A stretch of DNA of 23,783 nt from a virus: the IMG/VR virus record IMGVR_UViG_3300047471_000176, positions 1-23,783 of that record; one strand, written 5' to 3'. Every line of letters starts with the position of its first letter. Within the stretch, counting starts at the first letter, position 1. Shown here in pieces: positions 1,207 to 23,783 of this stretch. The notes under the pieces were generated by a model. The model searched no databases. It was not told the DNA's origin and worked only from the letters and a program-made list of their open reading frames with translations. The position numbers and the translations under genes are program-made.

Positions 1207-2109
1207 ATGTCCGAAGTAACGCGAACTAGTTTGGCCGACCGAAAGACGTTTGCCAAAATCCTGATGTACGGCAAGCCGAAGAGTGGCAAGACCACAGCGG
1301 CGGCACAGGTGGCGAAGCTCGACAGTGTTGAGCGCGTTGTATATGTCGATTGTGAAAGTGGATTGAAGGCGCCGCCACTCATCAACTACTTCGGCGTGCC
1401 CGTTGACAAGATCGACGTGCACGACGAAATTACCGACGCGGCCATTGAAGCGCTGATGTTCGAATGCCTGACTTCGCCACCCGATGCGTTGGTGGTTGAC
1501 TCGGCCACTGAGTTGCACAAGAAATTGCTTGAAGAGATTGCCAACGCGAATCGTGATCGTGCGAACGCGGCGGGCAAGAACCGCGACAAGTATTCAATGC
1601 AAGTCGATGACTACGGCGACAACACCACGCAAATGCGCAAGTTGTTTCGCGGCTTTCGCGACGCCAAGGCGCACGTCATTTTCGTGGCCCTTGAGCAACG
1701 CGATACCGACAAGGCCACTGGGCTAATCAGTTACCGCCCGGACATGACGCCGAAGTTGTCGAGTGACTTGCTCGGCTACGTTGACATTGTCTGTCACACC
1801 ACGTGCGAAAGCGTCAGCGGCCAAGCCGAGCCGAACTATTGGGGCACGTTTCGCGCCGTTGATTTGTATGAAGGTGGTGACCGTTTCCACATGTTGCCCC
1901 CGCGACTCATCAACCCGAGCGCTGACCGCATCATTGCCTACGTCAATGGTGACCTGACCCTTGATGATGACGCTGACATGCAACGCGAATTCGCGCGCAT
2001 GGGCATCGATTCGACCAAGGCTGAAGAGCTCGACGCCGCATTGGCCCCGCCCAAGACCACAACGACCGCGCCCCCGCCGCTCAAGGGCGCGAAAGCGATG
2101 GCGTCATGA
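1207..2109 (+). CDS. Sak4-like RecA-fold ATPase (recombination)
   Basis: A 300-residue single-domain P-loop ATPase. Walker A is GKPKSGKT at residues 22-29 and the Walker B-type strand DALVVDS is at 93-99. Size and motifs fit the AAA_24/Sak4 group of phage RecA-like single-strand annealing proteins, which pair ssDNA during replication and repair. The C-terminal 20-odd residues are a low-complexity Ala/Pro/Thr/Lys tail. The gene lies two genes upstream of a probable ssDNA-binding protein, the usual partner of Sak4 proteins. The ATG at 1207 follows a G-poor leader with CGAAAGCGAG. The stop overlaps the next start (ATGA at 2106). A RadA/DnaB-like core without recombinase activity is the main alternative. 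Confidence 0.88.
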   Translation: MSEVTRTSLADRKTFAKILMYGKPKSGKTTAAAQVAKLDSVERVVYVDCESGLKAPPLINYFGVPVDKIDVHDEITDAAIEALMFECLTSPPDALVVDSATELHKKLLEEIANANRDRANAAGKNRDKYSMQVDDYGDNTTQMRKLFRGFRDAKAHVIFVALEQRDTDKATGLISYRPDMTPKLSSDLLGYVDIVCHTTCESVSGQAEPNYWGTFRAVDLYEGGDRFHMLPPRLINPSADRIIAYVNGDLTLDDDADMQREFARMGIDSTKAEELDAALAPPKTTTTAPPPLKGAKAMAS

Positions 2110-2546
2110 GCGCGCGTTTTCACGTAGCCGTCAACGCAACGAATCCGAATGAAAGCGTTGTCGTGCGTATTGATGAGACCGGGCAAGGCGCCGTTATTGC
2201 CCATGCGACGCCGTTTCAGGGCCAAGCAATTGCCAACGCGCTCAATAAGCAATTGGGCAGCGTTGAAACGCACATAACCAAATTGGAAACGCGAGTGCAC
2301 GCCGGTCTTAGTACCGACTCATGCGCACTACCGAAGTGTGGGGTGACGCGTCAATTTCATTCGCAAGAGTCGCCATCGATTGATCATGAATTCGTTGAGG
2401 CGAACGCGATGGCATGTGCGCGTTGTGGGCATCGGGTATCGGCGCCCGTGCATGATTCATTGGGCTATGTGGGCGGCGACAACGACGAAATCGAATATGC
2501 GCCCGACAAGCACGCATTCGAACCGCCGCGAGGCGACAAGAACTGA
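2106..2546 (+). CDS. unknown protein with Cys/His zinc-binding half
   Basis: A 146-residue protein. The N-terminal half (1-60) looks like a small alpha/beta domain (FHVAVN, SVVVRIDETGQGAVIAH, then a helix QAIANALNKQL). The C-terminal half carries C73, C78, H85, H94, C104, C107 and H109, consistent with one or two zinc sites. It starts within the stop of the Sak4-like gene (ATGA), so the two are translationally coupled and may act together in recombination. No family is recognised. The acidic and charged C-terminus is probably disordered. Confidence 0.8.
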   Translation: MSARFHVAVNATNPNESVVVRIDETGQGAVIAHATPFQGQAIANALNKQLGSVETHITKLETRVHAGLSTDSCALPKCGVTRQFHSQESPSIDHEFVEANAMACARCGHRVSAPVHDSLGYVGGDNDEIEYAPDKHAFEPPRGDKN

Positions 2547-2617
2547 GACCACGCGCAAGCGTGATCAAAGTGAAGTAACAACACCAACCAAAGCGAACAC
2601 GAAAGCGAGACAAAGAA
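2547..2617 (+). promoter_or_regulatory. leader with GNRA hairpin and A-rich ribosome-loading segment
   Basis: A 71-base spacer before ATG 2618. It opens with a small hairpin (CACGC 2550-2554, GCAA loop, GCGTG 2559-2563) whose GCAA loop is a GNRA tetraloop. An A/C-rich stretch follows, containing CGAAAGCGAG (2600-2609), the ten bases also present before the Sak4-like gene. No strong -35/-10 pair is seen. Confidence 0.35.
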
Positions 2618-3046
2618 ATGCCAAAGTTACCGAGCGAAACCGCAGCGGCGGTCGATGAGACCGAAGCGGCGCAAGGCTTTACACCCGTGCCCGATGCTTT
2701 ATATGTGGCACAGCTCACGGGCGTTGAAGTCAAAGACGGCGACGAGGGGCCGTATTGGGCGTGGGAATTTACAATCCCTGAAGGTCACCCTTACGCCAGT
2801 CGCAAGTTTTGGAATAACACGAGTCTGGGCGAAAAGTCACGACCGTTTTTCAAGGCGATGTTTGATGCGTTCGGCGTGAGCGCTGACACCGACACTGACA
2901 CACTGGTGGGCAGTTATGCCATCTTGAGCATTGGCACGCGCACCATTCAAAAGGGTGCACGCGCGGGCCAGTTGGCAAACACCATTCGCGAAGTGTTGCC
3001 GTATGCCGACGCTGATGGCGTGGCACCGGGCGACGAAAGCGCCTAG
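2618..3046 (+). CDS. putative ssDNA-binding protein (DUF669-like)
   Basis: A 142-residue protein. From about residue 22 it reads as a beta-rich domain (PDALYVAQLTGVEVKD, GPYWAWEFTIPEG, SRKFWNNTSL), then a helix (RPFFKAMFDAFGV) and further strands (VGSYAILSIGTRT). This order and spacing resemble the DUF669/phage SSB-like OB-fold proteins often encoded beside Sak4 or Erf-type recombinases. The acidic C-terminus (DADGVAPGDESA) is typical of SSBs, where it recruits partners. It would coat ssDNA during replication and recombination. The family call rests on pattern and gene context, not on alignment. Confidence 0.7.
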   Translation: MPKLPSETAAAVDETEAAQGFTPVPDALYVAQLTGVEVKDGDEGPYWAWEFTIPEGHPYASRKFWNNTSLGEKSRPFFKAMFDAFGVSADTDTDTLVGSYAILSIGTRTIQKGARAGQLANTIREVLPYADADGVAPGDESA

Positions 3047-3050
3047 AACG

Positions 3051-3134
3051 CCGCGTGCCCCGTTGACCCGCATGTGCTGACATGACACGTGGCGGGTCTG
3101 AAGCCTCACCCATTAGGCGACAACGGGCGCGCGG
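3051..3134 (+). ncRNA. predicted three-way-junction structured RNA
   Basis: Right after the SSB-like stop the sequence folds into a closed three-way junction. P1 pairs 3051-3065 with 3121-3134 (14 base pairs, one bulged C at 3058, one G-U). P2 pairs 3066-3071 with 3092-3097 and continues 3072-3076 with 3086-3090. P3 pairs GCCT 3103-3106 with AGGC 3115-3118. The junction strands are CTGAA (3098-3102) and GA (3119-3120). The layout equals a type III hammerhead, but key core bases differ. A strong hairpin at 3141-3186 follows, as expected for the 3' end of a transcript. Function is unknown; all pairings were read by eye. Confidence 0.45.
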
Positions 3135-3140
3135 TACATT

Positions 3141-3186
3141 GGGCACCCACACGGTTGCTAGTGACTTCTCAATCGTGTGGGTGCCC
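3141..3186 (+). terminator. strong hairpin, probable terminator of the recombination operon
   Basis: GGGCACCCACACG (3141-3153) pairs perfectly with CGTGTGGGTGCCC (3174-3186). Four further pairs (3154-3157 with 3170-3173, one G-U) bring the stem to 17 bp with a 12-base loop. The 3' flank (ttcatc) lacks a real U-tract, so termination may be inefficient or of the actinobacterial U-poor type. It lies between the recombination and primase genes. Confidence 0.6.
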
Positions 3187-3226
3187 TTCATCAGTCTGTG
3201 AATGATCAACGGCGGCGAAAGTAGGT

Positions 3227-5818
3227 GTGGTGGCAAGTGTTCGCGAAGAGGCACGGCGACTAGCCGCACTGGGCTTCAATCCGTTGCCAACGCGACGTGG
3301 CAAGAAAGCACCGGGCTTGCCGTCATGGCGTGAATATCAATCACAACCATCAGCATCGATGGTTGACAGTTGGTGGGGCACAGGCAGTAGTTACGTCGGC
3401 ATTTGGACATGCACGGGGACCATCAGCTCGCTGATTGTTCTTGACTGTGACAGTAAAGACGCCGAAACATTTTGGCGGTCAGTGATCGACGCCGAGATGT
3501 CGGCCACCACGTGCGTGAAGACCGCGAAAGGCGCTCACTACTGGTTCGCGTTAGCGCCCGGTGACAAGGTCGAATCATGGGCGATGCATGAAGGCACCAT
3601 GTCATTTGACGTGAAGGCTGAAGGCGGCGGCGTCATGACCCCGCCAAGCCCGCACCCCGATGGCGGTTTTTATACGTGGGTGCGCGACATTGACGCCATC
3701 TTGCCCGCGCCGCGTTGGCTACTCGACGGCGGCAATGCGGCAAAAGCTCGAATGGCGGGGAACGATAACGCCGAGCCATCGAGCATAGCGGCGAATTTCG
3801 GTGCGGGGAATGACAACGGTAATGGTGAGGGCATCGGGGTCACCCGCACCATGCTCAGTCACTTGCTCAACAACAAGCCCGATGTGGGCGGGCGCAACGA
3901 TTGGCTGACGCGGGTGGCGGGGCACTACGCCAAATCTATTCCATTCGAAAACGCCTATATGGACACCATGCGCATGGTCAATCGAACGTTGAGCACGCCG
4001 CTTGATGACGGCGAATTCATCAAGACCGTGTTGAGCGTGTGGAATTCTGAAAAGAACAAGGGCCGCACCACGGTCGAATCGTTGCAAGAGCGTGGGATTA
4101 CGTCAGGCGAACCCGCCGACGACAACGGGTGGCTGATCGGCACGGGCCACATGTTGATGACAACGGTATTGGTGGGCGATAAAGACGCCAAGGTGTCGAT
4201 GATGACTGAGTGGGGCAACTTCGATGTCACGACACTGGGCGTGATCAAGGGCACTGAGACAACGGATTATCTCGTGGTGTTGCACACTATCGGAGGCGAT
4301 GTCGAATGCAAGCTTGAGGGGCGCATACTGGGGTCAGCGCGTGACCTTGCGGTATGGCTCGCGGCTCGACAAGCGGCGATTGTGCCACCCATCGGTGACA
4401 CGCACGCGCGAGCTTCAGTTGCCGCGCGATTGCTCAAGTACGTAACCGCGCAATCAGCGCCCGTGTATCAAAGCGTGTCGGCGTTGGGTTGGAATGATGA
4501 CGTACACGGCTTTATAACGCACGAGGGAATTATCAGGGGCGGCGACAGTGAGCCGCAACCGTTCGGTGACTTGCGGCCAGCGCCGTCGCTCAATGAATGG
4601 GCGCCGTATCGCTACGGGTTCGTGGCTGACCGTGACACGGCCAAAGCTGTGTTGCATGAAGTCATGACCTTTCATGATGATGACGTGTGCGCGGTTTATG
4701 GCTCATGGTGGGCGGCGTGTTTCGTGAAGCCGCAATTGATGACGCGCACGGCGTTGTTTCCCTTCATGGCGCTTGAGGCGCCGTCAGAAAGTGGAAAGAC
4801 CACAGGATTTTTCGCGTTGATGATGCAACTGGCGGGCAATCGCGAAGGCCACGGTGAATACACGATGGCCGTGCTACGTGACCGTGTGAGCGCGCACCAC
4901 AATGGGCCGGTGTGGGTTGATGATGTGACTGACCCCGCTGGTGCATTCGATTTGATACGACAAGCCACGTCGGGCGGTAGCCGAAGCAAGAAAGCCGAAA
5001 ACCGACACAACCAAGAGACCGTCGCATTGGTGGCCCCGGTCACGATGTCAGCCGAAGGCTTGCACGCGTTGTCAACTGAAAAGGCATTGAGTGACCGAGC
5101 CATCAAATTACGCGTGCCGTCACCCATCGACCGGCGCTCATTGAAAGACCCGACGCGTTCGCAATGGGAAGACATAACCGAATTGCAATTGCAATGGCGA
5201 CGCGACTTGACGCAATTGGCCGGTTGGTATGTGTCGATGGCGTTGGAAGTGCTCGACTGGGTTGATGACGTAACCGAGTTGCGCCCTGACGAACGCGGTG
5301 GGCGTTTCAACGATTCAATGGCGGTCTTGCGCGTCGGTGCGCGCATTCTTGAGCACATGGGCATTGTGGGCGTGCGTGATCGTGTTGACGCGTGGGTGAG
5401 CCGCCAAGCCGAGCTCTATGACCCCAGTGCCAACATCTTGACCAAGGCGGTGTTGCCGTGGGCGTGGCGTGAAGCGGGTTACCCGCGTTCGGCGTACGGC
5501 GGGCAACTGTGCTTCATTGATGACCACATGACGCTGTGGTATCGCGAAGAGGCGCTCAGTGACGCGTGGGCGGCTCGACGGTCAATCAGTGAGCGTGAGC
5601 GCCAGTTGGGGTCTCTTGAGTCGTTGCGTGACCAACGAGGGCGAATCACGGGCGCCAAGGGCGTCGGTAAGCCGTTTGTGACCGCCCGTGGTGGTCATGC
5701 CCGTAGCCGCTATCACAGTCTGCCTAGCGACGTTTCAGCGAGCGTCGCAGCGGCTTCAGGGTGGGGTGGCGAAGAGGCCACGGGCGACACGCCATTGAAG
5801 TTTCGGGGTGTCGAATGA
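3227..5818 (+). CDS. primase-polymerase / P-loop ATPase replication protein
   Basis: An 863-residue fusion. The N-terminal 160 or so residues match the bifunctional primase-polymerase (Prim-Pol) fold: LGFNPLPTRRGKKAPG...W near 14-35, VLDCD at 71-75 (catalytic D73, D75), KGAHYWF with H104, and FDVKAEGGG with D128. The C-terminal half contains a P-loop ATPase of the DUF927/SF3-like kind: Walker A APSESGKTTG at 518-527 and Walker B GPVWVDDV at 560-567, followed by a helical region. It should prime and unwind the phage genome. Tandem GTG codons at 3227 and 3230 are the possible starts; no strong Shine-Dalgarno is visible. The origin-like spacer lies immediately downstream. Confidence 0.9.
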   Translation: MVASVREEARRLAALGFNPLPTRRGKKAPGLPSWREYQSQPSASMVDSWWGTGSSYVGIWTCTGTISSLIVLDCDSKDAETFWRSVIDAEMSATTCVKTAKGAHYWFALAPGDKVESWAMHEGTMSFDVKAEGGGVMTPPSPHPDGGFYTWVRDIDAILPAPRWLLDGGNAAKARMAGNDNAEPSSIAANFGAGNDNGNGEGIGVTRTMLSHLLNNKPDVGGRNDWLTRVAGHYAKSIPFENAYMDTMRMVNRTLSTPLDDGEFIKTVLSVWNSEKNKGRTTVESLQERGITSGEPADDNGWLIGTGHMLMTTVLVGDKDAKVSMMTEWGNFDVTTLGVIKGTETTDYLVVLHTIGGDVECKLEGRILGSARDLAVWLAARQAAIVPPIGDTHARASVAARLLKYVTAQSAPVYQSVSALGWNDDVHGFITHEGIIRGGDSEPQPFGDLRPAPSLNEWAPYRYGFVADRDTAKAVLHEVMTFHDDDVCAVYGSWWAACFVKPQLMTRTALFPFMALEAPSESGKTTGFFALMMQLAGNREGHGEYTMAVLRDRVSAHHNGPVWVDDVTDPAGAFDLIRQATSGGSRSKKAENRHNQETVALVAPVTMSAEGLHALSTEKALSDRAIKLRVPSPIDRRSLKDPTRSQWEDITELQLQWRRDLTQLAGWYVSMALEVLDWVDDVTELRPDERGGRFNDSMAVLRVGARILEHMGIVGVRDRVDAWVSRQAELYDPSANILTKAVLPWAWREAGYPRSAYGGQLCFIDDHMTLWYREEALSDAWAARRSISERERQLGSLESLRDQRGRITGAKGVGKPFVTARGGHARSRYHSLPSDVSASVAAASGWGGEEATGDTPLKFRGVE

Positions 5819-6174
5819 TGTGCACACCAAGGGTGTGCATTGCTATGTGCTTTGCCAGTATTCCCGATAGAAATAGTAAGATATTATGTTACAACGAGAT
5901 GTCAAACGTGACAAATCCTCAAAAAATGCACACAGAAGATCACTGGGGTGTGCATAGGGGTGATCATAGTTTTAGTCAGTATTTACATAGTGATACACAC
6001 ACGCACACCCTTTTGCGGATAATGCTACGCGTGCGCGCGTGCGCGCACATGCGCGCGGGCACGTGCGAGTCATTCTGGCGAAGTGTGTGCATAGCTCGAA
6101 ATGGACGAAATGAGACTCAGTCTCATGTAGGTGTTTGTCACAGTGGCAAGCGTCAGATAGGGTGGGCGAGATGA
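5818..6174 (+). CDS. doubtful 118-residue reading frame across the origin-like spacer
   Basis: An open frame starts at ATG 5818, overlapping the primase stop (TGATG), and ends at TGA 6172-6174, overlapping the polymerase start (ATGA). Both joins are of the type used by real genes here. Against it: the composition is odd (Cys, His, Met and Arg-rich, no recognisable domain), and it uses ATA, AGA, AGG and TTA codons that are rare in neighbouring genes. It also covers inverted repeats, an alternating purine-pyrimidine tract, a palindrome and a promoter-like element. I favour a non-coding regulatory region. Confidence 0.25.
   Translation: MCTPRVCIAMCFASIPDRNSKILCYNEMSNVTNPQKMHTEDHWGVHRGDHSFSQYLHSDTHTHTLLRIMLRVRACAHMRAGTCESFWRSVCIARNGRNETQSHVGVCHSGKRQIGWAR
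5819..6092 (+). repeat. iteron-like GTGTGCA repeats, candidate replication origin
   Basis: The 7-mer GTGTGCA occurs at 5833-5839, 5948-5954 and 6085-6091, and its complement TGCACAC at 5821-5827 and 5927-5933. The first two form a tight inverted repeat (TGCACACC-AAG-GGTGTGCA). The next two form ATGCACAC-N14-GTGTGCAT, interleaved with GATCAC (5938-5943)/GTGATC (5960-5965). Between the pairs is an A/T-rich stretch (about 5865-5926) unlike the surrounding coding DNA. Initiator-binding repeats beside an A/T-rich unwinding zone, between primase/helicase and polymerase genes, fit a replication origin or operator array. Confidence 0.5.
6026..6057. other. 32-bp alternating purine-pyrimidine tract (Z-DNA-prone)
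   Basis: Bases 6026-6057 alternate pyrimidine and purine without a break and are mostly CG/TG steps. This is the classical composition for left-handed Z-DNA and is also able to form GC-rich hairpins with the following bases to about 6066. A second alternating stretch (5993-6008, CA-rich) lies just upstream. Confidence 0.6.
6111..6125. promoter_or_regulatory. palindromic operator candidate upstream of DNA polymerase
   Basis: TGAGACT-C-AGTCTCA is a perfect 7-bp-arm palindrome ending nine bases before the candidate -35 element of the polymerase promoter. Essentially the same palindrome occurs at 10411-10425. The position suits a dimeric activator or repressor. Confidence 0.5.
6135..6163 (+). 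promoter_or_regulatory. candidate leaderless promoter of DNA polymerase
   Basis: TTGTCA (6135-6140) is 17 bases from TAGGGT (6158-6163), and the hexamer is followed by seven bases and then ATG 6171. Transcription would begin at or next to the start codon. The endolysin start at 12416 has the same geometry. There is no good Shine-Dalgarno before ATG 6171. Confidence 0.5.
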
Positions 6175-7976
6175 GTTTGCGACTTCCACGAGGGTCACGC
6201 AACGTGGCCGTTGACAGTGAGACCAGCGGGCTGTATGTCGATGACGGGGCGCGCATCAGCGTGGTTTCGGCGGCATGGCGCGACGTTCACACCAACAATT
6301 TGAAATCTGACGCGTGGGCGTTCGATCACGGGCGCAATGCGAAGGCGGGCCAAGACGACTTGTTGGCGCTGATTGACGCTGACCCGAATAGAACGCAATT
6401 TGAATGGAACGTGCTAATGCAATGGCTCAATCAACAACGGTTGATCATGCATAACGCCTATTTCGATTTGCAAATGTTTCACGCGGGTCATCGTGAATAC
6501 GGGTTTGGCATTGACTTGACTGACGCATTAGTGCACGACACGATGTTGACGCAATGGGTTCTTGAGCCGACAGAATCAGCGGCGTTGAAATCAACGGCGT
6601 CGCGCATATGGGGTGCGAATGAAAGTGCGTCGGCGCGAGCTATCGAAGCGCAGTTGGAAACCAACGGCGGGCGCTATGACTTTTTGCCGTGGGCTGAAGT
6701 CAGTGAGTATGCACGCCAAGATGCTGAATTGACGTTGCGACTGGCCGAGCGGCAATTTGATTTGCTTGAAGGCTCAAGTGAGTATTTGAGCGAACAAGTC
6801 GAAACCGAATTGAAAGTGTGCAAGGCGCTCACCCGCATGGCATATCGCGGCATTGGTTATGACGCGACACGTTCGCGATTGGAAGGCGCCAAGGCGAAAG
6901 CACAAATAGCGAAGGTGTCACACGAATTGCCTTTCAAGTTGACCGAAGCCGCCACACGGGCGTGGTTTATCAACACGTGTCGGTGCATACCGCATTGCAT
7001 GACGGCGGGCAAGAAAGCATCATTGAGTGAATGTTGCATCAGAAGTTTTCAGGCGCAAGGCGCGCCGTGGGCTGATGAATACGCGACATTGCAAAAGTTG
7101 AAGCGAACCGTGAGCGTGTATTACGACGGCTACGCCAAGGCGACGGGTGTTGACGGGCGACTCCGAACGGACTACAAACAAATGGGCACGATTTCGATGC
7201 GCTTCAGTTCGCATCGTGTCAATTTGCAAGCCATACCCCAAGACCACAAGCTTGAGCGCCTTGAGGGCGTGGTGTTGCCGCGCGCGTTGTTTCGTGCAAG
7301 CGAAGGGCAACAATTGTGGGAATTCGATTTAGGACAAGCCGAAGCGCGCGTGGGCGCGAAGATTGCGGGTTGCACGTCATGGCTTGAGATGTTCGAAGAG
7401 GGCCGCGATTTGCATAGTGAAACCGCGCGGCAATTGTTTGATGACGATTCACACAAATGGCGACAGATTGGCAAGCGTGCGAACTTCGCATTGATTTACG
7501 GCGTCGGGGCGCATACGTTTCGCGGCGACGTGGAAAAGATGACTGGCGTGATACTCAGTGAGCGTGAGGCGCAAGAAATTGTGACCGAATGGCGCAAGTT
7601 GTTTCCCGAATTCCCGCGCATCAATCATCGCACCGAAGACTTCGCGCGCCGACGTGGTTATGTCGAATTGATTGATGGGCGTAGGCGGTATTTTCGCCCG
7701 TTCGAAGAGATGCATAAGGCGTTCAACGCCGTGGTGCAAGGGTCGATTGCGCAAGTCATCAAGCACATCATGATTGACCTTGATGAATGTGGGTATGACT
7801 TGCTCTTGCAAGTGCACGACTCAATTGTGATTGAACTTGATGCGGGCGACATCGTTGGCAATGGCGCGCTGATCACGCGCCGAATGGGCGAGCTCGCAAC
7901 CAAGATGTGTGGGGTGCCGATGTTCGCTGAAGCGAAGCACTGGCACACGTTGGCTGACGAAAGTGTGAGTGTATGA
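6171..7976 (+). CDS. family A DNA polymerase with 3'-5' exonuclease
   Basis: 601 residues from ATG 6171, preferred over the in-frame TTG at 6135, which would form part of a promoter. Exonuclease motifs: D15/E17 (VAVDSETSGL), N95/D99 (MHNAYFD), Y180/D184 (EYARQDAE). Polymerase motifs: A, FDLGQAEAR with D386; B, R431-x3-K435...F439...Y443-G (O helix; F439 aligns with E. coli Pol I F762); C, QVHDS with H549/D550. It therefore should be the replicative, proofreading phage polymerase. It lacks a 5' nuclease domain, as is usual in phages. Oddity: five cysteines (C270, C272, C276, C288, C289) cluster in the thumb region. The stop overlaps the next start (ATGA 7973). Confidence 0.95.
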   Translation: MSLRLPRGSRNVAVDSETSGLYVDDGARISVVSAAWRDVHTNNLKSDAWAFDHGRNAKAGQDDLLALIDADPNRTQFEWNVLMQWLNQQRLIMHNAYFDLQMFHAGHREYGFGIDLTDALVHDTMLTQWVLEPTESAALKSTASRIWGANESASARAIEAQLETNGGRYDFLPWAEVSEYARQDAELTLRLAERQFDLLEGSSEYLSEQVETELKVCKALTRMAYRGIGYDATRSRLEGAKAKAQIAKVSHELPFKLTEAATRAWFINTCRCIPHCMTAGKKASLSECCIRSFQAQGAPWADEYATLQKLKRTVSVYYDGYAKATGVDGRLRTDYKQMGTISMRFSSHRVNLQAIPQDHKLERLEGVVLPRALFRASEGQQLWEFDLGQAEARVGAKIAGCTSWLEMFEEGRDLHSETARQLFDDDSHKWRQIGKRANFALIYGVGAHTFRGDVEKMTGVILSEREAQEIVTEWRKLFPEFPRINHRTEDFARRRGYVELIDGRRRYFRPFEEMHKAFNAVVQGSIAQVIKHIMIDLDECGYDLLLQVHDSIVIELDAGDIVGNGALITRRMGELATKMCGVPMFAEAKHWHTLADESVSV

Positions 7977-8128
7977 AAAATCAAAAACGAAAGTGTTACC
8001 CGCGATGTTGGTTTGCGTATCCGGGCCGCGTTGGCTCATCATCGCCAACGTGCGTGCGGTGCGGTTCACCTAATCCGCGTTATCGCAGTGGCGATGACGA
8101 CCGTTTGCATGATCGGTATTGGTCATGA
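7973..8128 (+). CDS. 51-residue basic Cys protein, putative zinc-binding
   Basis: Translates from ATG 7973, overlapping the polymerase stop, to TGA 8126-8128, which overlaps the next start. Four cysteines form two pairs (C-Y-P-R-C near residues 8-12 and CVRCG near 27-31), so a small zinc finger is plausible. The N-terminus is basic (MKNQKRKC) and the tail is DDDRLHDRYWS. Presumably nucleic-acid binding; family not recognised. Confidence 0.65.
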   Translation: MKNQKRKCYPRCWFAYPGRVGSSSPTCVRCGSPNPRYRSGDDDRLHDRYWS

Positions 8129-8141
8129 GAGTGCTCGCCAT
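8124..8141 (+). repeat. 18-bp direct repeat, left copy
   Basis: CATGAGAGTGCTCGCCAT at the start of the esterase gene is identical to 8993-9010 at the start of the RuvC-like gene. The copies are 869 bp apart and bracket the esterase gene. Confidence 0.75.
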
Positions 8142-8997
8142 TGTTGTGTTGTTGACGGCGTGGATTGTGACGCCGCACAACACCGTGACTGTGCATCGAA
8201 ATTTGTATGTCGTGTTGGGTGATTCGAATGCGATGGATTCTGAATCGTACGCAATCAATCCATTCACATTCAAGAATTACTACGGCACAGCGATTCAAAA
8301 TGGCGCTGACGCGCACGACTATTTGGCGTGGACATCATGGGATATGAAAGCGTCAGTGCACAACGTGGTTGGTCTTGATGCGGCGCAGTATCGAAGTGAC
8401 GGCACGCAAATCTTTGGCCCTGAATTGGGATTAGCTCGCGGGCTGTGGAATAGGTATCACGTGGGCGCAACGTTCGTGAAGGGCGCGCCACTCAATGCCT
8501 CAGTAGCGAATTGGTTGCCCGCGTCAATGATCACCTATCTGAAAGAACTGGTTGCCAAGATCAAAATTGTTATTGCTTTTGATACGGCGCGCGGGCACGC
8601 TGATGTTGTGCGCGGTTTCTACTGGAATCAGGGCGTGGCCGATGTGAACAAAGCAACGACTAAGGCGCAGTACGTCGCGCGGCTCAAGGTGGTCATTTCG
8701 TATCTTCGCGTGAGTTTCAATGCCGCAACGGCGCCGTTGGTCATCAGTGAAATTGATTTGACCAAGAACATTGCCTACCGTCAAGCCAATGGTGGTTGCA
8801 ATAATCCATATTTGTCATGCGCCCAAGAGACAACGGGCAATGATGTGATTCGCTCAGCTCAAGTGGCAATGACCACAGCATTTTCTCACACGTATGTTGT
8901 CGATACGCGCGGGTTGACACGCGCGACGAATGGCGTACATCTTGATGATGCGGGCGATTTGACATTGGGCTACGCACTAGCGAAGGTGACGCCATGA
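8125..8997 (+). CDS. secreted or anchored SGNH/SASA-type esterase
   Basis: A 290-residue protein. Residues 1-16 are hydrophobic (signal or membrane anchor). GDSNA at 32-36 provides nucleophile S34. FGPELGLARGL (97-107) and FYWNQGVADV (165-174) match blocks of the SASA/carbohydrate-esterase subgroup of SGNH hydrolases. The C-terminal block reads TNGVHLDDAG (268-277) with H272. The usual catalytic Asp at H-3 is Asn (N269), so it may work as a dyad or be altered in activity. The likely role is deacetylating a cell-surface or capsular sugar. It interrupts a replication gene run, and its first six residues (MRVLAI) and their DNA equal the start of the next gene, suggesting insertion as a moron. 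Starts and stops by ATGA overlaps. Confidence 0.78.
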   Translation: MRVLAIVVLLTAWIVTPHNTVTVHRNLYVVLGDSNAMDSESYAINPFTFKNYYGTAIQNGADAHDYLAWTSWDMKASVHNVVGLDAAQYRSDGTQIFGPELGLARGLWNRYHVGATFVKGAPLNASVANWLPASMITYLKELVAKIKIVIAFDTARGHADVVRGFYWNQGVADVNKATTKAQYVARLKVVISYLRVSFNAATAPLVISEIDLTKNIAYRQANGGCNNPYLSCAQETTGNDVIRSAQVAMTTAFSHTYVVDTRGLTRATNGVHLDDAGDLTLGYALAKVTP

Positions 8998-9010
8998 GAG
9001 TGCTCGCCAT
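8993..9010 (+). repeat. 18-bp direct repeat, right copy
   Basis: Identical to 8124-8141. Here it encodes the MRVLAI that begins the RuvC fold, so this copy is probably the ancestral one. Confidence 0.75.
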
Positions 9011-9404
9011 CGACCCCGGCGAAGTGCATTGCGGCGTCGCATTTTTTGACGATGGCGTTTGCACGCATACCGAAGAGTGCAAGCCATCGACGTTATTTGA
9101 GCATTTGGTTTTTGAGATGCTTGACGTTGTCGTATGTGAGGAGTTTCGACTTTATCCTTGGACAGCGGGCGCGCAATCGTTTTCGTCAATGGCGACGTGT
9201 GAAGTCATTGGCGTCATCAAATACATATGCGAGCAAGAAAGTATGCCGCTTGTTATGCAATCAGCGACGATCAAGAAAGTTGCGAGTGCGCAAATGAAAG
9301 CGCGTGGTGTTGACAATCTCGCGGTCGTGCAACGCAAGGGCGGGCACGCAGTTGACGCGTTCTTGCACGGGTGGTTCTACATCAATCAAACGAAAGGCGT
9401 GTGA
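8994..9404 (+). CDS. RuvC-like Holliday junction resolvase
   Basis: A 136-residue protein. The start MRVLAIDPG carries the first catalytic Asp (D7) of the RuvC/RNase H fold. VVVCEEFRLYP (about 45-55) supplies the acidic residue after the central strand. The C-terminal GGHAVDAFLHGWF (about 115-127) has the HxxDA motif of the last catalytic residue. This is the compact phage form that resolves branched DNA before packaging. It lies downstream of the polymerase, separated only by a zinc-finger-like gene and the esterase. The ATG overlaps the esterase stop. Confidence 0.85.
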   Translation: MRVLAIDPGEVHCGVAFFDDGVCTHTEECKPSTLFEHLVFEMLDVVVCEEFRLYPWTAGAQSFSSMATCEVIGVIKYICEQESMPLVMQSATIKKVASAQMKARGVDNLAVVQRKGGHAVDAFLHGWFYINQTKGV

Positions 9405-9405
9405 C

Positions 9406-9567
9406 ATGGCAAATTGTGAGCATTGTGGGTATGACGGCGACGCGATGGGCGATGAGTTACAAGACTTGCGTGTGTTGCGCGACAAGCAAGCCACAGTTAT
9501 CGATGCGCAACATGACGCGCTTGATGACATCGACACCATTACAGCGAAAGGGTTGAAACTACGATGA
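9406..9567 (+). CDS. 53-residue acidic protein with CxxC
   Basis: ATG 9406 begins one base after the RuvC stop. The N-terminus has MANCEHCGYDGD (CxxC), followed by an acidic helix (ELQDLRVLRDKQATVIDAQHDALDDIDTI) that could form a coiled coil. In-frame starts upstream would overlap the RuvC gene by about 100 bases, so 9406 is preferred. The stop overlaps the next ATG at 9564. Function unknown. Confidence 0.65.
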   Translation: MANCEHCGYDGDAMGDELQDLRVLRDKQATVIDAQHDALDDIDTITAKGLKLR

Positions 9568-9842
9568 CGGCTAACGGCATCATCATTGGCTACAAGGGCG
9601 ATGGCGACGTGACGGTGTATGCCGTGGCATCGGGTGCGCTGATGTGTGAGAGTGCGCACCACGAGAGTGGCGAGCTCTTCGGCGTCACGTCGGCGGCTGA
9701 AATGGCAACGCACGTGCGCGAGCATGTGAAGTTGGGTCATAGCGTGCCACAGGTACAATTTGCACGGTTCGAACATGATCAGTTGGCGTGGCAACGTTGG
9801 CTCAATACGTTCGATGAAACGGGGTCACATGTCGTGGGCTGA
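9564..9842 (+). CDS. unknown 92-residue protein
   Basis: Starts by ATGA overlap. Two strands appear in the N-terminus (GIIIGYKGDGDVTVYAVASGALMCES), followed by a helix (SAAEMATHVREHVKLGHS) and an aromatic C-terminal part (QVQFARFEHDQLAWQRWLNTFDE). It is a compact alpha/beta protein with no recognisable motif. Position among small genes between the replication and lysis regions gives no strong hint. Confidence 0.65.
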   Translation: MTANGIIIGYKGDGDVTVYAVASGALMCESAHHESGELFGVTSAAEMATHVREHVKLGHSVPQVQFARFEHDQLAWQRWLNTFDETGSHVVG

Positions 9843-9893
9843 ATTCAAGCAAGTGTGGTGCGATTACGTCAGGTGCACGAAAAGTTGGTTTCG

Positions 9894-10094
9894 ATGAGAA
9901 TGGTGACGTGTGATCGATGCGCGACGCCGCATGATGAATCGGTGAGTGGCATTAGCCCGTGCCGTAATCCACAAGAGGTACGCAATACTGAAACGCCGTG
10001 CCCGGTGTGTCACCACACGCATGACCAAGGGTTGATGTGTTTGACCGTGCTAGAGCTCGACGGGGGCCAAGTCGCATGTCAGTGTGTGAAATGA
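9894..10094 (+). CDS. zinc-ribbon-like small protein
   Basis: 66 residues from ATG 9894; GTG 9855 in the same frame is an alternative that adds 13 residues. Pattern: CDRC near residues 6-9, a single Cys, CPVCHHTH around 35-42, then C and CQC at the end. This is enough for two zinc knuckles. The stop overlaps the next start (ATGA at 10091). Function unknown, probably nucleic-acid or protein binding. Confidence 0.65.
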   Translation: MRMVTCDRCATPHDESVSGISPCRNPQEVRNTETPCPVCHHTHDQGLMCLTVLELDGGQVACQCVK

Positions 10095-12379: not shown

Positions 12380-12408
12380 TTGACGCACGGGCACGTCACA
12401 TGTACGCT
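12380..12408 (+). promoter_or_regulatory. candidate leaderless promoter of the endolysin
   Basis: TTGACG (12380-12385), a 17-base spacer and TACGCT (12403-12408) are followed by seven bases and then ATG 12416. The layout is identical to the element before the DNA polymerase at 6135-6163. It lies directly after the 12320-12368 hairpin, as expected for a new transcription unit. Confidence 0.55.
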
Positions 12409-12415
12409 CACGGCC

Positions 12416-13141
12416 ATGACGACATTGCAAGATTGCCGAGCCGCCGTTGTCGCGTCAGCTCACTATTATCTGATTGATCACGCACAGTGCCATTACACCG
12501 AAGGGCCAAACCGCAATATCGGCTTACGCAATGCGCCGTTTGCATTGCCCGTTGACTTCGATTGCACGATGTTCTACACCACGTGCTTCAAAGACGGCGG
12601 CGTGCTCAATGACCCAAATGGCAAACTCGGCGGCGTCAATTATTCGGGCGAAGGCTATAGCGGCACGTTGTCAGCCAACGGCAAACGCTTGTTGCTTGGT
12701 GCGCGTTCGGCTCGACCGGGCGACGGCGTCATGTACGGGCCGGGTACGGGTGAGCATTGGGCGATGATCGTTGTAGCGGGTGCTGACCCGCTGACGATTT
12801 CGATGGGCGCTGAAGGTGACCCGCACTACATTCACGTGAGCCAAGACAATCGTTGGCCGAAGCGCTTTTACACCTTTGACATGATGGGCACGCCGCGTTA
12901 CCCGCCGGGTATGGCCCCCACGCCACCCGTTGTCACGCGCCCGAATTTGGCCGAAGGTATGCAAGGTCAGTACGTCACCTTTGCGCAAAACCGTTTGAAT
13001 GCGAAAGGTGCCAAGCCGAAGTTGGCCGTCGATGGGCAGTTTGGCCCGCTGACCAAAGCCGCCGTCATGCAATTTCAAACGCTCAACAAGATGCCCGTGC
13101 TAGGCGTCATCAATCAAGCGACGTGGGCAAAGCTCGCTTGA
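12416..13141 (+). CDS. endolysin: NlpC/P60-like peptidase + peptidoglycan-binding domain
   Basis: 241 residues from ATG 12416, preferred over an in-frame TTG at 12380 that forms the -35 element. The N-terminal domain carries FDCTMF with nucleophile C50, ARPGDGVMYGPG (98-110) and EHWAMIVV with H114, the cysteine-His layout of NlpC/P60/CHAP peptidases. A Pro-rich linker (about 161-176) leads to a C-terminal PG_binding_1-type domain, with DGQFGPLTKAAVMQFQ at 206-221 and the final TWAKLA. It should cleave peptidoglycan stem peptides at lysis. There is no signal peptide, so release would depend on a holin. The stop TGA overlaps the TTG start of the WhiB-like gene. Confidence 0.88.
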   Translation: MTTLQDCRAAVVASAHYYLIDHAQCHYTEGPNRNIGLRNAPFALPVDFDCTMFYTTCFKDGGVLNDPNGKLGGVNYSGEGYSGTLSANGKRLLLGARSARPGDGVMYGPGTGEHWAMIVVAGADPLTISMGAEGDPHYIHVSQDNRWPKRFYTFDMMGTPRYPPGMAPTPPVVTRPNLAEGMQGQYVTFAQNRLNAKGAKPKLAVDGQFGPLTKAAVMQFQTLNKMPVLGVINQATWAKLA

Positions 13142-13452
13142 CCACTGTGGCCGAGATTGAAGAGTGGACACAGTTAGCCAAGTGTCGCGGCCATTACGAA
13201 CTTCAAGACTTGCTTTTCTTTTCTGACCGGGGCAGCGGCGTGATCGACGCGAAGCGTTGGTGCAAGGGCCAGAATCCTGAAGGCACGCGCATTGGCGACA
13301 CGGTTGATGATGGCCGCGTGTGCCCTGTCATGGCCGAATGCCTCAACTATGCGCTCGACAACCACATTGGCCTAGGCACATGGGGTGGCGAAAGCGAGCG
13401 CCAACGCCGCATGTTGCAACGGATACGTCGCCGTCAGCGCAACGAGGGCTAA
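13138..13452 (+). CDS. WhiB-like Fe-S transcription factor with insertion
   Basis: 104 residues from TTG 13138, which overlaps the endolysin stop (TTGA); GTG 13123 and 13147 are in-frame alternatives. The sequence has the Wbl hallmarks: W...AKC (C16), LLFFSDRG, AKRWC (C42), VCPVMAECLNYAL (C62, C68), the GTWGG turn (80-84) and a basic tail (RRMLQRIRRRQR). Four cysteines would hold a [4Fe-4S] cluster. Oddity: C42 and C62 are separated by 19 residues, where Wbl proteins normally have two. Wbl genes are found in Actinobacteria and their phages, where they can alter host transcription. Confidence 0.85.
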   Translation: MTTVAEIEEWTQLAKCRGHYELQDLLFFSDRGSGVIDAKRWCKGQNPEGTRIGDTVDDGRVCPVMAECLNYALDNHIGLGTWGGESERQRRMLQRIRRRQRNEG

Positions 13453-19085: not shown

Positions 19086-19511
19086 ATGGCCCGCACCATG
19101 AAATACGGCGAAAAGGTGCCGTTGGAAGATCAAATCAAAGCACTCGACGCACGTGTTGAGGCGTACCGCAACGACATCAAGACCAATGAAATTGTTGGTT
19201 TCGAACGCGAAACGAATTACACATTGGCGAAAAAGCGCAAGGCGTCGAAAGATGAGCTTGACGCCATCGAACAGTCGTGCGTGGAAGTTGACAAGTTGAT
19301 TGAAACGCAAGAGCAATCAATCAAAGACTTGCTTGCCGAAAAGACGCGGTTGACTTCAAACCGCGAGGGCCGACGCGCTAACGCTAAGGTCACGAACATC
19401 AAAGACGCCAAAAAGTCAACGGGCATTTCACCCGTGCCGCGTCGGCCACGCGCCAAGAAAGTGCCCGCCAAGAAAGTGCCCGCCAAACGCACACCCGCGA
19501 AGCGCCGCTAA
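19086..19511 (+). CDS. coiled-coil protein with histone-H1-like basic tail
   Basis: 141 residues from ATG 19086, with Shine-Dalgarno GAAAGGGG at 19074-19081. Residues 10-100 are a charged helix likely to form a coiled coil (LEDQIKALDARVEAYRND, then DELDAIEQSCVEVDKLIETQ). The C-terminus is a Lys/Ala/Pro tail (RAKKVPAKKVPAKRTPAKRR) like bacterial histone-H1-type or nucleic-acid-binding tails; two units are an exact 15-bp tandem repeat. It could bind DNA or RNA during assembly, or be a scaffold-like or tail protein. The stop overlaps the next start (TAATG). Confidence 0.72.
   Translation: MARTMKYGEKVPLEDQIKALDARVEAYRNDIKTNEIVGFERETNYTLAKKRKASKDELDAIEQSCVEVDKLIETQEQSIKDLLAEKTRLTSNREGRRANAKVTNIKDAKKSTGISPVPRRPRAKKVPAKKVPAKRTPAKRR
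19452..19481 (+). repeat. 15-bp tandem repeat encoding AKKVP
   Basis: GCCAAGAAAGTGCCC occurs twice in a row and is followed by two degenerate units (AKRTP, AKRR). It encodes the basic tail of the 19086 gene and is prone to copy-number slippage. Confidence 0.85.
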
Positions 19512-19759
19512 TGTTGCTCGCCTTTGCCCAACAACCGTTTGCCGCGATGTGGTCATTTGAAGACACGGGCGCGAGCATCGGGTTGGGCAAGGTGGGCGGG
19601 TACGCCGTCGTGGCTCGCTTGAATGGGTATGCGGCGATTGCTCGAATGCACGGGCGCGCGTCACACGCTCACATGAATGGCGACGCCGCTACAGCCTCAC
19701 TCAATGGCTACGCCGCTGATGCTGTAATGGTTGGCACAGCGAAGGGTGACACAACATGA
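19511..19759 (+). CDS. nonapeptide-repeat protein
   Basis: 82 residues from ATG 19511, overlapping the previous stop (TAATG). From residue 28 to 77 it is built of nine-residue units: VGGYAVVAR, LNGYAAIAR, MHGRASHAH, MNGDAATAS, LNGYAADAV and a partial MVGTA. Position 1 is hydrophobic, position 3 is always Gly, and positions 5 and (except in the partial last unit) 8 are Ala. The spacing suggests a regular solenoid or beta-roll rather than a globular fold, and it does not match the RTX nonapeptide. The first 27 residues are non-repetitive and hydrophobic. Likely a small virion or host-surface protein; no family recognised. Confidence 0.68.
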   Translation: MLLAFAQQPFAAMWSFEDTGASIGLGKVGGYAVVARLNGYAAIARMHGRASHAHMNGDAATASLNGYAADAVMVGTAKGDTT

Positions 19760-20151
19760 GTCCGTTATACGATTTCGACGGCGGCAACAAGATTCGTTTT
19801 CGAACGGGCGACGGCACATCAGGCTTGTCCGATGACACGCCCTTTACCGCCATCGAAGCGGGCGGCACGCCGATTGACCCTGACGTTACCCAATTCAAAT
19901 TGGCAAAGAACGGCGCTGACGCTGACACCTTTACCTACACATGGGGCGCGTCACCGCCTGACCCCAGTTTCACCATCGTGCGCCTTGCGACGGGTGACTA
20001 CAAAGCCGAATTCGATGACGTGACCGATGACGATGAATACTGGGAAGGCCAATGGCTATGTCATTCTGATGACGCGGTCAATCACGACACCACCAAAACC
20101 AAAGTCGCGGGCAAGGTCATTCGCGTCATCATTAGAGATAGCGGGCTATGA
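19756..20151 (+). CDS. beta-rich structural protein
   Basis: A 131-residue protein with alternating strands and acidic turns: NKIRFRTGDGTSG, PIDPDVTQFKLAKNGADADTFTYTW, PSFTIVRLATGDYKAEFDDV, ending in VAGKVIRVIIRDSG. The order 'DPD-VT-F.......F.YT....P.I.R..TG.Y....D' is the layout of phage Ig-like or neck/tail accessory proteins that begin with 'D..V.L.v..PdG'. It is coupled to both neighbours by ATGA overlaps. Probable virion protein; exact role unknown. Confidence 0.7.
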   Translation: MSPLYDFDGGNKIRFRTGDGTSGLSDDTPFTAIEAGGTPIDPDVTQFKLAKNGADADTFTYTWGASPPDPSFTIVRLATGDYKAEFDDVTDDDEYWEGQWLCHSDDAVNHDTTKTKVAGKVIRVIIRDSGL

Positions 20152-20561
20152 CCATTGAGACAACCGAACCCGTAAAGACACACAGGTGGCGAACGGTGCT
20201 CGCCATTGTCTTTTTGCTCGGGTGGTTGGCGGCAATCTTCGGTTACATCTTTGACGATTGGTGGCGACACCGAATCATTGAAGACTTCTGGCCTATTGAC
20301 AATTCGACATTGTCGCCCAATTTGGTTGCGACGGTTATTCAATACGCCATCATCATCGTGACGGTTGTGTTGGCCTACCCACCAGCTCGCGATTTTTTCA
20401 AACGTGAATTCGCTAAGGCCAGTGCCGAACGCGCGGCACACCATGATGAAGCCACGGCGCACCGCGATGAATTGTTGCGCCACGTGCAACACATCATCAA
20501 GCATCACCCCGACATACCGCCATTAGAACCGAAGATGAATGCCGATACTTCAACTGAGTGA
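20148..20561 (+). CDS. two-TM membrane protein, holin candidate
   Basis: A 137-residue protein. The short basic N-terminus (KTHRWR) is followed by TM1 at about 16-34 (TVLAIVFLLGWLAAIFGYI), a loop rich in Trp and charges (DDWWRHRIIEDFWP), TM2 at about 61-77 (ATVIQYAIIIVTVVLAY), and then a long charged helix (RDFFKREFAKASAERAAHHDE). Two TMs with a charged C-terminal tail is a common holin layout. The alternative is a structural membrane-associated protein, because the gene overlaps the large terminase (by 23 bases), not the endolysin. Confidence 0.72.
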   Translation: MTIETTEPVKTHRWRTVLAIVFLLGWLAAIFGYIFDDWWRHRIIEDFWPIDNSTLSPNLVATVIQYAIIIVTVVLAYPPARDFFKREFAKASAERAAHHDEATAHRDELLRHVQHIIKHHPDIPPLEPKMNADTSTE

Positions 20562-21921
20562 CGCCGCAGCGGTAGCCGCTGAAATGCTCGACCCCACGTT
20601 GAGCCTTGACGACATCTCACGTGGCTTGCTCAACTGGCGCGACATTCGCCGCGACAACCAAACGCCACCCATTGACCCGCTCGACTGGTTCTTGTGGGTG
20701 TTACTCGCGGGGCGCGGCTTTGGCAAGACCGCGACGGGCGGCAACTTTCTACTTGATGAAATGCAAGCGGCGCCTAATTATTGGTACGCGATGATTGGCC
20801 CGACGTTTGACGAGGGCCGCGACATCATGGTTGAAGGTGAAAGCGGCTTGTTGTATTGGGCTGACGCGCGCAAGATTCGCCACACGTGGAATAAGTCGCT
20901 CGGGCATTTCACCATCAAGGGTGGCGCACGTGCTGACTTGTTCACCGCTGAAAAACCTGACGGCGTGCGTGGCCCAAACTTGCGCGCACTATGGGGCGAT
21001 GAATTCGCGTCATGGCGCTATGGGCAACAAGTGTGGCAAACGGTTATTTGGGCGATGCGTAAAGGCAACGTGAAAGCATTGTTGACGGGCACACCACAGG
21101 CCACGCCATTCGTCAAAGAAATTTTGCGTCAAGCGAGCGTGGTGACCAAGGGCGTCACGGCTGACAATGAAGCGAACCTCAGTTCGAAGTTTCTTGAGCG
21201 CGTCATCAAACCGCTTGAGGGTACGCGCCTATATCGACAAGAGGCGTTGGCTGAAATTCTTGAAGACGTTGATGGCGCCTTGTGGAAACAAGCCGAGATT
21301 GACGCCACCCGCGTCGCGAGCGTGCCGAGCTACCAAGAATACGACGGCGACGAATTGGTTGACGTGGCTGACCTTGTTGAACTGGGCGTGACGGTTGACC
21401 CGTCAGCGAGCAACAAGGGGCCACGTTCGGCAACGGGCCATGCCCAACGTGCCAGTGACGAATGCGGCATTATGCTCGCGGGCCGGGGTAGCGACGGCCA
21501 CGCCTATGTCATGGCTGATTGGTCAGAGCGGCTTTCAATTGAACAGTGGGCGGCGCGGGCCATTGACCTGTATGACATGTTTGAAGCCGACTGGATTGGG
21601 GCCGAAGTCAACCACGGGCACGACATGGTTGTGAGCGCTTTGACCGCACATTGCCGCGCAACGGGCCGGTCAGTGCCCAAGATCGTGCGGCTAAATGCCA
21701 GTCGCGGCAAGACCGTTCGCGCACAGCCGGTGCAAGGTCTTTATGTTCAAAGCATGGTTCACCACGTGGGCGTTTTTCCAAAATTGGAAGATGAAATGAC
21801 CACATGGATTGAGGGCGCCCCCGGCGCAAGGTCACCGAATCGGCTTGACGCTCTTGTGTACGCTGTGAGTGAGCTATTGCTAAAGCGCTCGGGTCGAAAG
21901 TTGGGTTACACGGCATCATGA
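20539..21921 (+). CDS. terL: large terminase subunit
   Basis: A 460-residue protein. Walker A is AGRGFGKT at residues 57-64. Walker B is RALWGDE at 149-155, with D154 and catalytic E155. LLTGTPQA is the coupling motif. The C-terminal RNase H-like nuclease has TVDPSAS (D287), GAEVNHGHD (E356) and NRLDALVYAV (D437). It is therefore complete in both the ATPase and nuclease parts and would package and cut concatemeric DNA. The start ATG lies 23 bases inside the preceding gene, and the stop overlaps the portal start (ATGA). The small subunit is not adjacent; the HGG protein at 10432 is the best candidate. Confidence 0.95.
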   Translation: MPILQLSDAAAVAAEMLDPTLSLDDISRGLLNWRDIRRDNQTPPIDPLDWFLWVLLAGRGFGKTATGGNFLLDEMQAAPNYWYAMIGPTFDEGRDIMVEGESGLLYWADARKIRHTWNKSLGHFTIKGGARADLFTAEKPDGVRGPNLRALWGDEFASWRYGQQVWQTVIWAMRKGNVKALLTGTPQATPFVKEILRQASVVTKGVTADNEANLSSKFLERVIKPLEGTRLYRQEALAEILEDVDGALWKQAEIDATRVASVPSYQEYDGDELVDVADLVELGVTVDPSASNKGPRSATGHAQRASDECGIMLAGRGSDGHAYVMADWSERLSIEQWAARAIDLYDMFEADWIGAEVNHGHDMVVSALTAHCRATGRSVPKIVRLNASRGKTVRAQPVQGLYVQSMVHHVGVFPKLEDEMTTWIEGAPGARSPNRLDALVYAVSELLLKRSGRKLGYTAS

Positions 21922-23783
21922 GCGTCACCGACCGCATACGCGATGTGATCATTGGCGAGTCGCGTTCGCTCGACATAGTTTCACCATCTCGCGGGCGCAA
22001 CGTTGAGATTCGTGACCCGTCGGGCGCGACTCTTCAAACATCGACCTACACCAATTTGGGCAAGCCAATGGTGCCCGTTTGGAATGCTGAAGACGCCGTG
22101 CGGCTCGCTTATTACGCCAACGTGATTGTGTATCGTGCCGTGTTTCAATGCGCAATGGCAATCAGTGGTCTTCCATTTCGCGCGGGTAAAGACCCCGAAA
22201 AGCCTGACAAGTTTGTGACGACGGCGCCACTGGCGCGGTTACTCTCACCCCCACCCGGTGGGCCAGCGCCACACGTGAGCGCACGCCGTTTGTGGGCGTG
22301 GACAGTTACGCAATATCTGATCACGGGCAAATGGGCGTGGGAAATTGAATGTGAATCACCAAAAGGCAAAGGTCAAATCGTCAACCTGTGGCCGTTAGTC
22401 AGTTGCGCTCTTGAGGCGTTACCGACGAAAAGCGGCAACGATTATTTCACGGGCTACAGCTACGGCAAACCGGGCACGACGGGCAACGAACGCCGCCCGT
22501 TGACACCTGACCAAGTCTTTTACGGGTGGCGCCCAATGGCTGATGACTACCGCCAACCCGAATCGCCGTTGCAAGCCGCGCGCCTTGGCGTCAGCGTGGC
22601 CGTCATGCAAGACCGATATGACTTCGCCTTTTTACGCAATGACGCACGCCCCGCCGCCATCGTGGTGCATGAAGCGTTCGCGACAAAACAAGAGGGCGAA
22701 GCATTCAAGCGCGCGTTTCGCGGCGACTTTCGTGGCCCCGACAATGCGGGCAAGACAATGTTTCTTGAAGCATTGGGCGACACTGAGCACGGTGTTATGG
22801 GCAGCATTGACATCAAGGTGCTTGGCATGTCACAGCGTGACGGCCAATTCATGCAACGTTACGAACAGAAGATCAATGACATTTGCGTGGCGCTCGGCAC
22901 GCCGTTGTCAATCTTGGGCGACTCTTCAAAACGCACCTATGACGCGGCCAATGTTGAACATCGCAACTGGTGGGAAAACACGTTGCAACCGTTGTGCTTT
23001 GAATTGGCTGATGAAGCCAACATGCAACTGGCGCCGCGACTGGGCAATGAGCTCGGTTGGTTTGACTTCAGCCGCGTCAAGGCGCTTCAGAGTGACAACA
23101 AACTTTTGACGCTCGGGGCGACGTTGCCAATGTTGGTGGGCGCCGGTAAGCCCATTGCCAGCACCGAACTTCGCGACGCGCTAGAACTGCCCACAACGCG
23201 CCCGCCTGACATGCCCGGTGAAACGGCCACGCCCGCGCCTACGGGCGCTGTGGCGTCAACTGAGCCGCCTACGGGCGTCGATGACGGGTCACCGGGTAAA
23301 GCGCCTGACACGGGAATGAAGCCCGCACCCGCACCAACGGGTACGCCCGATATAACGCCGCCGGGGCCGGGGCGTCAACCGGGTGCTGGCCGTGAAGCCG
23401 CTACCGAGACCCGCGAACGCACGCGCGAGACCCGCCTAACTGAATGGCGCAAGGTTGACGCCAGTGTGCGAGCGTTCGAACCCATCTTTGAAGAGGCCAT
23501 GCAAACCATCTTCGAAAAGCAAGAACGTAGTGTGCTCGCGAAGTTGCGTGACCGAAGGGGCGCACGCGCCAAGGGTGACGATGCCGCGTCACGTTTGTTC
23601 GATCAGGAGTATTGGTCACAGGAGATTGCGAAGGTCATGGGGCCGCATTATGGCACCGTGTTCGCGCGAGCGGGCGAAGCCGTTGAAGCCAAGTTTGGCG
23701 TCAGCTTCAGCGTCAAAGACCCATTGGCCCGCGAATTCATCGACAAGCGCGCGAATCAACTGGCGGGTCAAGTCAACGAGACT
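21918..23783 (+). CDS. HK97-type portal, fused to head-morphogenesis domain (3' cut)
   Basis: The frame opens at ATG 21918 (ATGA with the terminase stop) and is still open at the window end, giving 622 residues. Portal signatures: YYANVIVYRAVFQCAMAISG (about 60), FAFLRNDARPAAIVVHEAF, then CVALGTPLSILGDSSKRTYD and NWWENTLQPL. A Pro/Gly/Thr-rich linker spans about 425-506. After it, residues 507-622 (EWRKVDASVRAFEPIFEEAM, then LFDQEYWSQEIAKVMGPHYG and FIDKRANQLAGQVNET) resemble the N-terminal part of MuF/gp7-type head-morphogenesis proteins. A portal-MuF fusion is therefore likely; a portal with a long C-terminal extension is the alternative. The ring sits at the capsid vertex as the DNA channel. 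Confidence 0.9.
   Translation, partial: MSVTDRIRDVIIGESRSLDIVSPSRGRNVEIRDPSGATLQTSTYTNLGKPMVPVWNAEDAVRLAYYANVIVYRAVFQCAMAISGLPFRAGKDPEKPDKFVTTAPLARLLSPPPGGPAPHVSARRLWAWTVTQYLITGKWAWEIECESPKGKGQIVNLWPLVSCALEALPTKSGNDYFTGYSYGKPGTTGNERRPLTPDQVFYGWRPMADDYRQPESPLQAARLGVSVAVMQDRYDFAFLRNDARPAAIVVHEAFATKQEGEAFKRAFRGDFRGPDNAGKTMFLEALGDTEHGVMGSIDIKVLGMSQRDGQFMQRYEQKINDICVALGTPLSILGDSSKRTYDAANVEHRNWWENTLQPLCFELADEANMQLAPRLGNELGWFDFSRVKALQSDNKLLTLGATLPMLVGAGKPIASTELRDALELPTTRPPDMPGETATPAPTGAVASTEPPTGVDDGSPGKAPDTGMKPAPAPTGTPDITPPGPGRQPGAGREAATETRERTRETRLTEWRKVDASVRAFEPIFEEAMQTIFEKQERSVLAKLRDRRGARAKGDDAASRLFDQEYWSQEIAKVMGPHYGTVFARAGEAVEAKFGVSFSVKDPLAREFIDKRANQLAGQVNET

Follow-up and report, generated by a model that had tools for sequence, protein, structure and literature searches.

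The stretch of DNA analysed here (the window, 23,783 nucleotides, IMG/VR record IMGVR_UViG_3300047471_000176) is a fragment of the genome of an uncultured phage and carries genes for a primase, a DNA polymerase A, an endolysin and a terminase. Immediately after the endolysin gene lies an open reading frame coding for a WhiB-like (Wbl) protein in which the second and the third of the four cysteine ligands of the Fe-S cluster are unusually far apart (Table 1). As the primase resembles the primases of Streptomyces and Arthrobacter phages, the host is presumably an actinobacterium.

Table 1. Positions in the window of the Wbl gene, its upstream neighbor and the features of the encoded protein
Feature	Position	Strand	Basis
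Upstream endolysin ORF, C-terminal PG_binding_1	12380–13141	+	TGA overlaps the Wbl TTG
Wbl ORF, 104 aa from TTG	13138–13452	+	Translation, Pfam
Fe-S ligand 1, C16	13183–13185	+	Invariant in 30 aligned Wbls
Fe-S ligand 2, C42	13261–13263	+	Invariant in 30 aligned Wbls
Enlarged ligand 2–3 loop, 19 residues KGQNPEGTRIGDTVDDGRV (residues 43–61)	13264–13320	+	x8–x17 at the equal site in other phages
G44 of the C-x-G signature (C42-K-G44)	13267–13269	+	90/90 distinct enlarged proteins
Short beta-hairpin predicted within the insert (strands 51–52 and 55–56)	13288–13305	+	AlphaFold2, pLDDT about 84–89 locally
Fe-S ligand 3, C62	13321–13323	+	Invariant in 30 aligned Wbls
Fe-S ligand 4, C68	13339–13341	+	Invariant in 30 aligned Wbls
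GTWGG turn (80–84); W82 is the counterpart of WhiB1 W60, a SigA contact	13375–13389	+
Basic C-terminal helix (residues 88–104), expected DNA-contact segment	13399–13449	+	Sequence; model helix 87–103

The Wbl gene and its genomic surroundings

The start codon of the Wbl gene (TTG, 13138–13140) and the stop codon of the endolysin gene (TGA, 13139–13141) overlap in the tetranucleotide TTGA. Two rival in-frame starts, GTG at 13123 and GTG at 13147, are present and none of the three starts is preceded by a clear Shine–Dalgarno sequence; scans for promoters and terminators around the gene did not rise above the level of shuffled sequences. A further contig, IMGVR_UViG_3300046514_000169 (41,914 bases), is 99.99–100% identical to the window from 1 to 10066 and from 19122 to 23783, stops exactly at 10066 and 19122 and is devoid of the Wbl stretch. 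Since the matches at both ends of the window stop at exactly these positions, both contigs are fragments of one phage genome of about 51 kb, which is probably circularly permuted or circular. The window also encodes a carbohydrate esterase of the SASA type (PF03629, position 8119–8997), which lies amid the DNA-metabolism genes and not among tail genes.

The nearest relative phage (L009, IMGVR_UViG_3300048784_000146), whose terminase is 58% identical to that of the window, also has a Wbl gene after a lysis-type gene, before the structural genes and about 8 kb before the terminase gene. In contrast to the gene of the window, however, this Wbl gene starts 28 bases past the stop codon of the lysis-type gene, and its product has a C-x3-C spacing and no enlarged loop. 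Thus, the two phages share the position of the gene in the lysis and structural region, but neither the long loop nor translational coupling. The initial annotation had taken the TTGA join as a hint of late host takeover. The overlap is real, but it is a weak sign of such a takeover, as the start codon is ambiguous and the coupling is absent in L009; from the position of the gene we infer that the Wbl protein is expressed late. Between its structural genes and its terminase gene L009 contains an open reading frame of 1183 residues (5732–9283) which is built almost entirely from RTxTDSISISD-type repeats.

A Wbl core whose ligand 2–3 loop is enlarged

The open reading frame encodes exactly four cysteines with the spacing C-x25-C-x19-C-x5-C. 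The gap between C42 and C62 is therefore 17 residues longer than in the C-x2-C arrangement of host Wbls, and the C-x5-C spacing of ligands 3 and 4, the GTWGG turn and the basic tail are all intact. The Wbl family has been defined by four cysteines and a G[V/I]WGG motif (PMC6282962). Both are present in the window protein, with a threonine at the V/I position, which is variable in other phages as well. The Pfam family Whib (PF02467) matches with 45.9 bits (cut-off 23.6, E 8.6e-12). The alignment, interrupted by the insert, is limited to residues 61–93, corresponding to profile positions 33–65; in practice Pfam sees only the second half of the protein. The Pfam score, the four cysteines and the predicted fold (see below) confirm that the open reading frame encodes a WhiB-like protein, and the insert separating ligand 2 from ligand 3, which had also been proposed from the sequence, is real. 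A closer cysteine arrangement was sought, but no other nearby cysteine in the open reading frame could replace ligand 2 or ligand 3. The 17 extra residues are not explained by a frameshift, the frame is open throughout, and no tandem or internal duplication was seen. The window contains the DNA pattern encoding the feature a single time, and none of 100 shuffled sequences contains it, so that the feature is not due to chance.

Apart from the loop, the protein agrees well with characterized members of the family. WhiB1 and WhiB3 of M. tuberculosis and WhiB of S. venezuelae share with it the four cysteines, the C-x5-C spacing of ligands 3 and 4, the GxWGG motif, a tryptophan six residues before ligand 1, a pair of phenylalanines, the basic C-terminal helix and the predicted fold. 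They differ in having two instead of 19 residues between ligands 2 and 3 and V or I instead of T in the GxWGG motif. In an alignment of 30 Wbls the four cysteines and GxWGG are invariant (30/30), W10 is kept in 26 of the 30 rows, and the columns of F27 and F28 hold an aromatic residue in 28 and 27 rows, respectively. In the loop, by contrast, sequence conservation is confined to C-x-G and the closing residues.

The structure of the protein was predicted with AlphaFold2 from the alignment of 30 members and without modelling the cluster (pLDDT 88.8, pTM 0.77). The model has four helices (4–11, 33–42, 65–74, and 87–103) in the order typical of Wbls, and its convincing matches in the PDB are Wbls only, WhiB3 (8cwr, Z 9.6) and WhiB1 (6ono, Z 9.0), both of them in complex with region 4 of SigA. 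Loss of F31, F32, or W76 of WhiB3, which correspond to F17, F18, and W60 of WhiB1, abolishes SigA binding in WhiB3, and W3 of WhiB1 is a tryptophan near the cluster (PMC10245118). The counterparts in the window protein are F27, F28, and W82 for the SigA-contacting aromatics and W10 for W3. Three options had been put forward for the cluster at the outset: that the insert is normally looped out, that the cluster is tuned to a different redox signal, or that it does not form. The confident model of a Wbl fold and the ligands, invariant over 30 relatives, support the first; as the ligands are invariant, a loss of the cluster is unlikely.

Enlarged loops among phage Wbl proteins

Single-sequence searches of viral contigs with the window protein found no relative, and a tblastn search of 50,697 phage records returned Wbls of less than 60% identity and nothing closer. 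We therefore rely on pattern scans of the 2.9 million viral contigs of IMG/VR. The DNA pattern required C-x5-C, an alanine following ligand 4 and GxWGG, and excluded a cysteine three or four residues before ligand 3. It retrieved numerous true Wbls with C-x8-C, C-x9-C, and C-x10-C, and a second scan, exhaustive for x14 to x24, yielded proteins with x14, x15, and x17. The window protein has the longest loop of this series (x8, x9, x10, x14, x15, x17, x19), and no second protein with exactly x19 turned up in the x14–x24 scan; likewise, true Wbls with a spacing of x4 to x7 were not found in these scans. C-x-G follows ligand 2 in each of the 90 distinct enlarged proteins, as opposed to 6 of 82 proteins with C-x2-C (Fisher p about 3e-42, overstated since the sequences are related), and the residues after ligand 2 were not selected by the pattern. 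Judged by these sequences, the enlarged loop is an existing phage feature of which the window protein is the longest form found. The insertion, initially regarded as a singular oddity, is not one, since a graded phage series from x8 to x17 exists. Regarding a known phage Wbl family with the same insertion, enlarged loops of x8 to x17 do occur, but exactly x19 was not found elsewhere.

In a phage sample chosen by the CP, Ala, and GxWGG motifs irrespective of spacing, the 115 Wbls comprised 97 with C-x2-C, two with x3, 15 with x8, and one with x14, that is, the loop is enlarged in 16 of 115 (about 14%) of these motif-matched proteins. A scan of 396 Actinomycetota genomes with the enlarged pattern gave no Wbl-like match, and the C-x2-C pattern, used as a positive control, matched in 30 of 60 such genomes. 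Only two overlapping GC-rich matches in a single genome were obtained and these look like chance. With 19 residues from ligand 2 to ligand 3, the window protein cannot be filed in one of the host-type subclasses of Wbls, which have C-x2-C. It belongs to the enlarged-loop group of phage Wbls, which we define by at least eight residues between these ligands and by C-x-G, both of which it has. Neither PHROGs nor NCBIfam separates this group. Wbls with doubled cysteines at ligands 2–3, which could shift the spacing in the other direction, are encoded on the viral contigs L348 (ICRCCP) and L341 (LCCTCP), and one phage contig (L029, 5989–6682) has two adjoining Wbl reading frames, one with C-x2-C and one with C-x10-C.

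Members of the group are also found in isolated phages. The Streptomyces phages BRock (gp68, YP_009831793), GiJojo (149), and Alone3 (160) encode proteins annotated as WhiB which, like the window protein, have the enlarged loop C-x-G ... CP, although with x8 instead of x19. Their gene lies between the genes of a Holliday junction resolvase and an exonuclease, whereas the gene of the window follows the endolysin gene. A further member is a Wbl from an uncultured phage (L155, IMGVR_UViG_3300036790_000457). It has x17, and at the equal site a hairpin longer than that of the window protein is predicted with high confidence (strands 49–52 and 58–61). Unlike the gene of the window, the L155 gene is situated amid DNA-metabolism genes, and the sister of L155 (L148) has only x9. 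In a tree built on the Wbl core with the loop cut out, these x17 and x9 proteins are sisters (99/91), an x14 protein is nested in an x8/x10 clade (100/96), and the window protein is left unplaced because of too little signal. Both placements imply that the loop length changed repeatedly and that the fold tolerates such changes.

Descriptions of Wbls have so far relied on four cysteines, the middle two of which lie close together. A survey of WhiB proteins in actinobacteriophages (PMC8612146) does not mention the cysteines, and in the literature searched we found no cysteine-spacing variants of Wbls; subscription papers may contain an earlier mention.

Possible role of the loop

The ligands, the fold, the prediction of the hairpin, the shared C-x-G, and the presence in phages together with the absence from the sampled hosts are established by computation. 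Taken together, it appears likely that the gene encodes a functional, Fe-S and sigma-binding Wbl of an actinobacterial phage with a looped-out hairpin. C16, C42, C62, and C68 would still hold a [4Fe-4S] cluster. Where Wbls usually have a turn of two residues, the chain linking C42 to C62 would leave the core as a beta-hairpin and then return, such that the geometry of the ligands would be unchanged. By analogy to known Wbls, the holo-protein would dock on region 4 of the main sigma factor of the host via the cluster-adjacent aromatics W10, F27, F28, and W82, the basic C-terminal helix would contact promoter DNA and the host RNA polymerase would be redirected during infection. A phage Wbl acting on its host has a precedent in WhiB of mycobacteriophage TM4, as cited in PMC8612146 and PMC13148394. 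The hairpin itself might offer additional contacts at the rim of the interface between sigma and RNA polymerase, or cover the cluster as a lid, rather than act as a redox switch, a role for which there is less support than for the other steps.

It is possible, though somewhat unlikely in our view, that the loop is neutral slack, i.e., an old insertion in a phage lineage which was tolerated at a surface turn and has no function of its own. Loop length and sequence vary freely between close relatives, and L009 manages with a plain C-x3-C, so that the hairpin is not needed in the lineage of this phage. Nevertheless, C-x-G in 90 of 90 proteins and a length distribution with no members between x3 and x8 suggest a constrained design over drift and thus favor some constraint on the loop.

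An altered redox response is unlikely. The enlarged loop would shield or expose the cluster, which would then sense a different level of O2 or NO. The insert does adjoin the ligands, and the cluster of WhiB7, which has no counterpart of WhiB1 W3, is solvent-accessible and more sensitive to O2 (PMC10245118). But the residues of the insert include no candidate ligand or redox group, and the poor conservation of the loop outside C-x-G and the closing residues also argues against retuning.

We consider it improbable that the insertion abolishes the cluster and that the protein acts in its apo-form as a DNA-binding or dominant-negative decoy. Apo-WhiB1 binds DNA and its C-terminal helix is freed on cluster loss (PMC5741622), and the TM4 protein is cited in PMC13148394 as being able to inhibit host whiB2. 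On the contrary, the four cysteines, which would be lost in free decay, are kept in all aligned enlarged-loop proteins, the SigA-contacting aromatics are kept although they are relevant to the holo-form only, and the Wbl fold is predicted to be intact. An assembly or sequencing error is very improbable: a single metagenomic assembly covers the Wbl stretch, but the open frame, the lack of a duplication and an insert following the C-x-G rule of independent contigs all speak against it.

A looped-out hairpin next to an intact cluster is thus the reading we prefer. More tentatively, phages may carry their own subclass of Wbls, recognizable by C-x-G together with the enlarged ligand 2–3 loop and absent from hosts, in which the variable hairpin by the cluster may be a functional module adapting the Wbl to the host RNA polymerase, to a phage partner or to a different signal, with the window protein as its longest form. 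With about one in seven motif-matched phage Wbls enlarged and none seen in 396 host genomes, the enlarged loop points to a branch of the family on the phage side that is not mentioned in the papers searched. If the hairpin is functional, these proteins would show, as a natural experiment, how a sigma-binding Fe-S factor can acquire a new surface and yet keep its cluster, and they would be well suited to testing how phages divert the transcription of actinobacteria.
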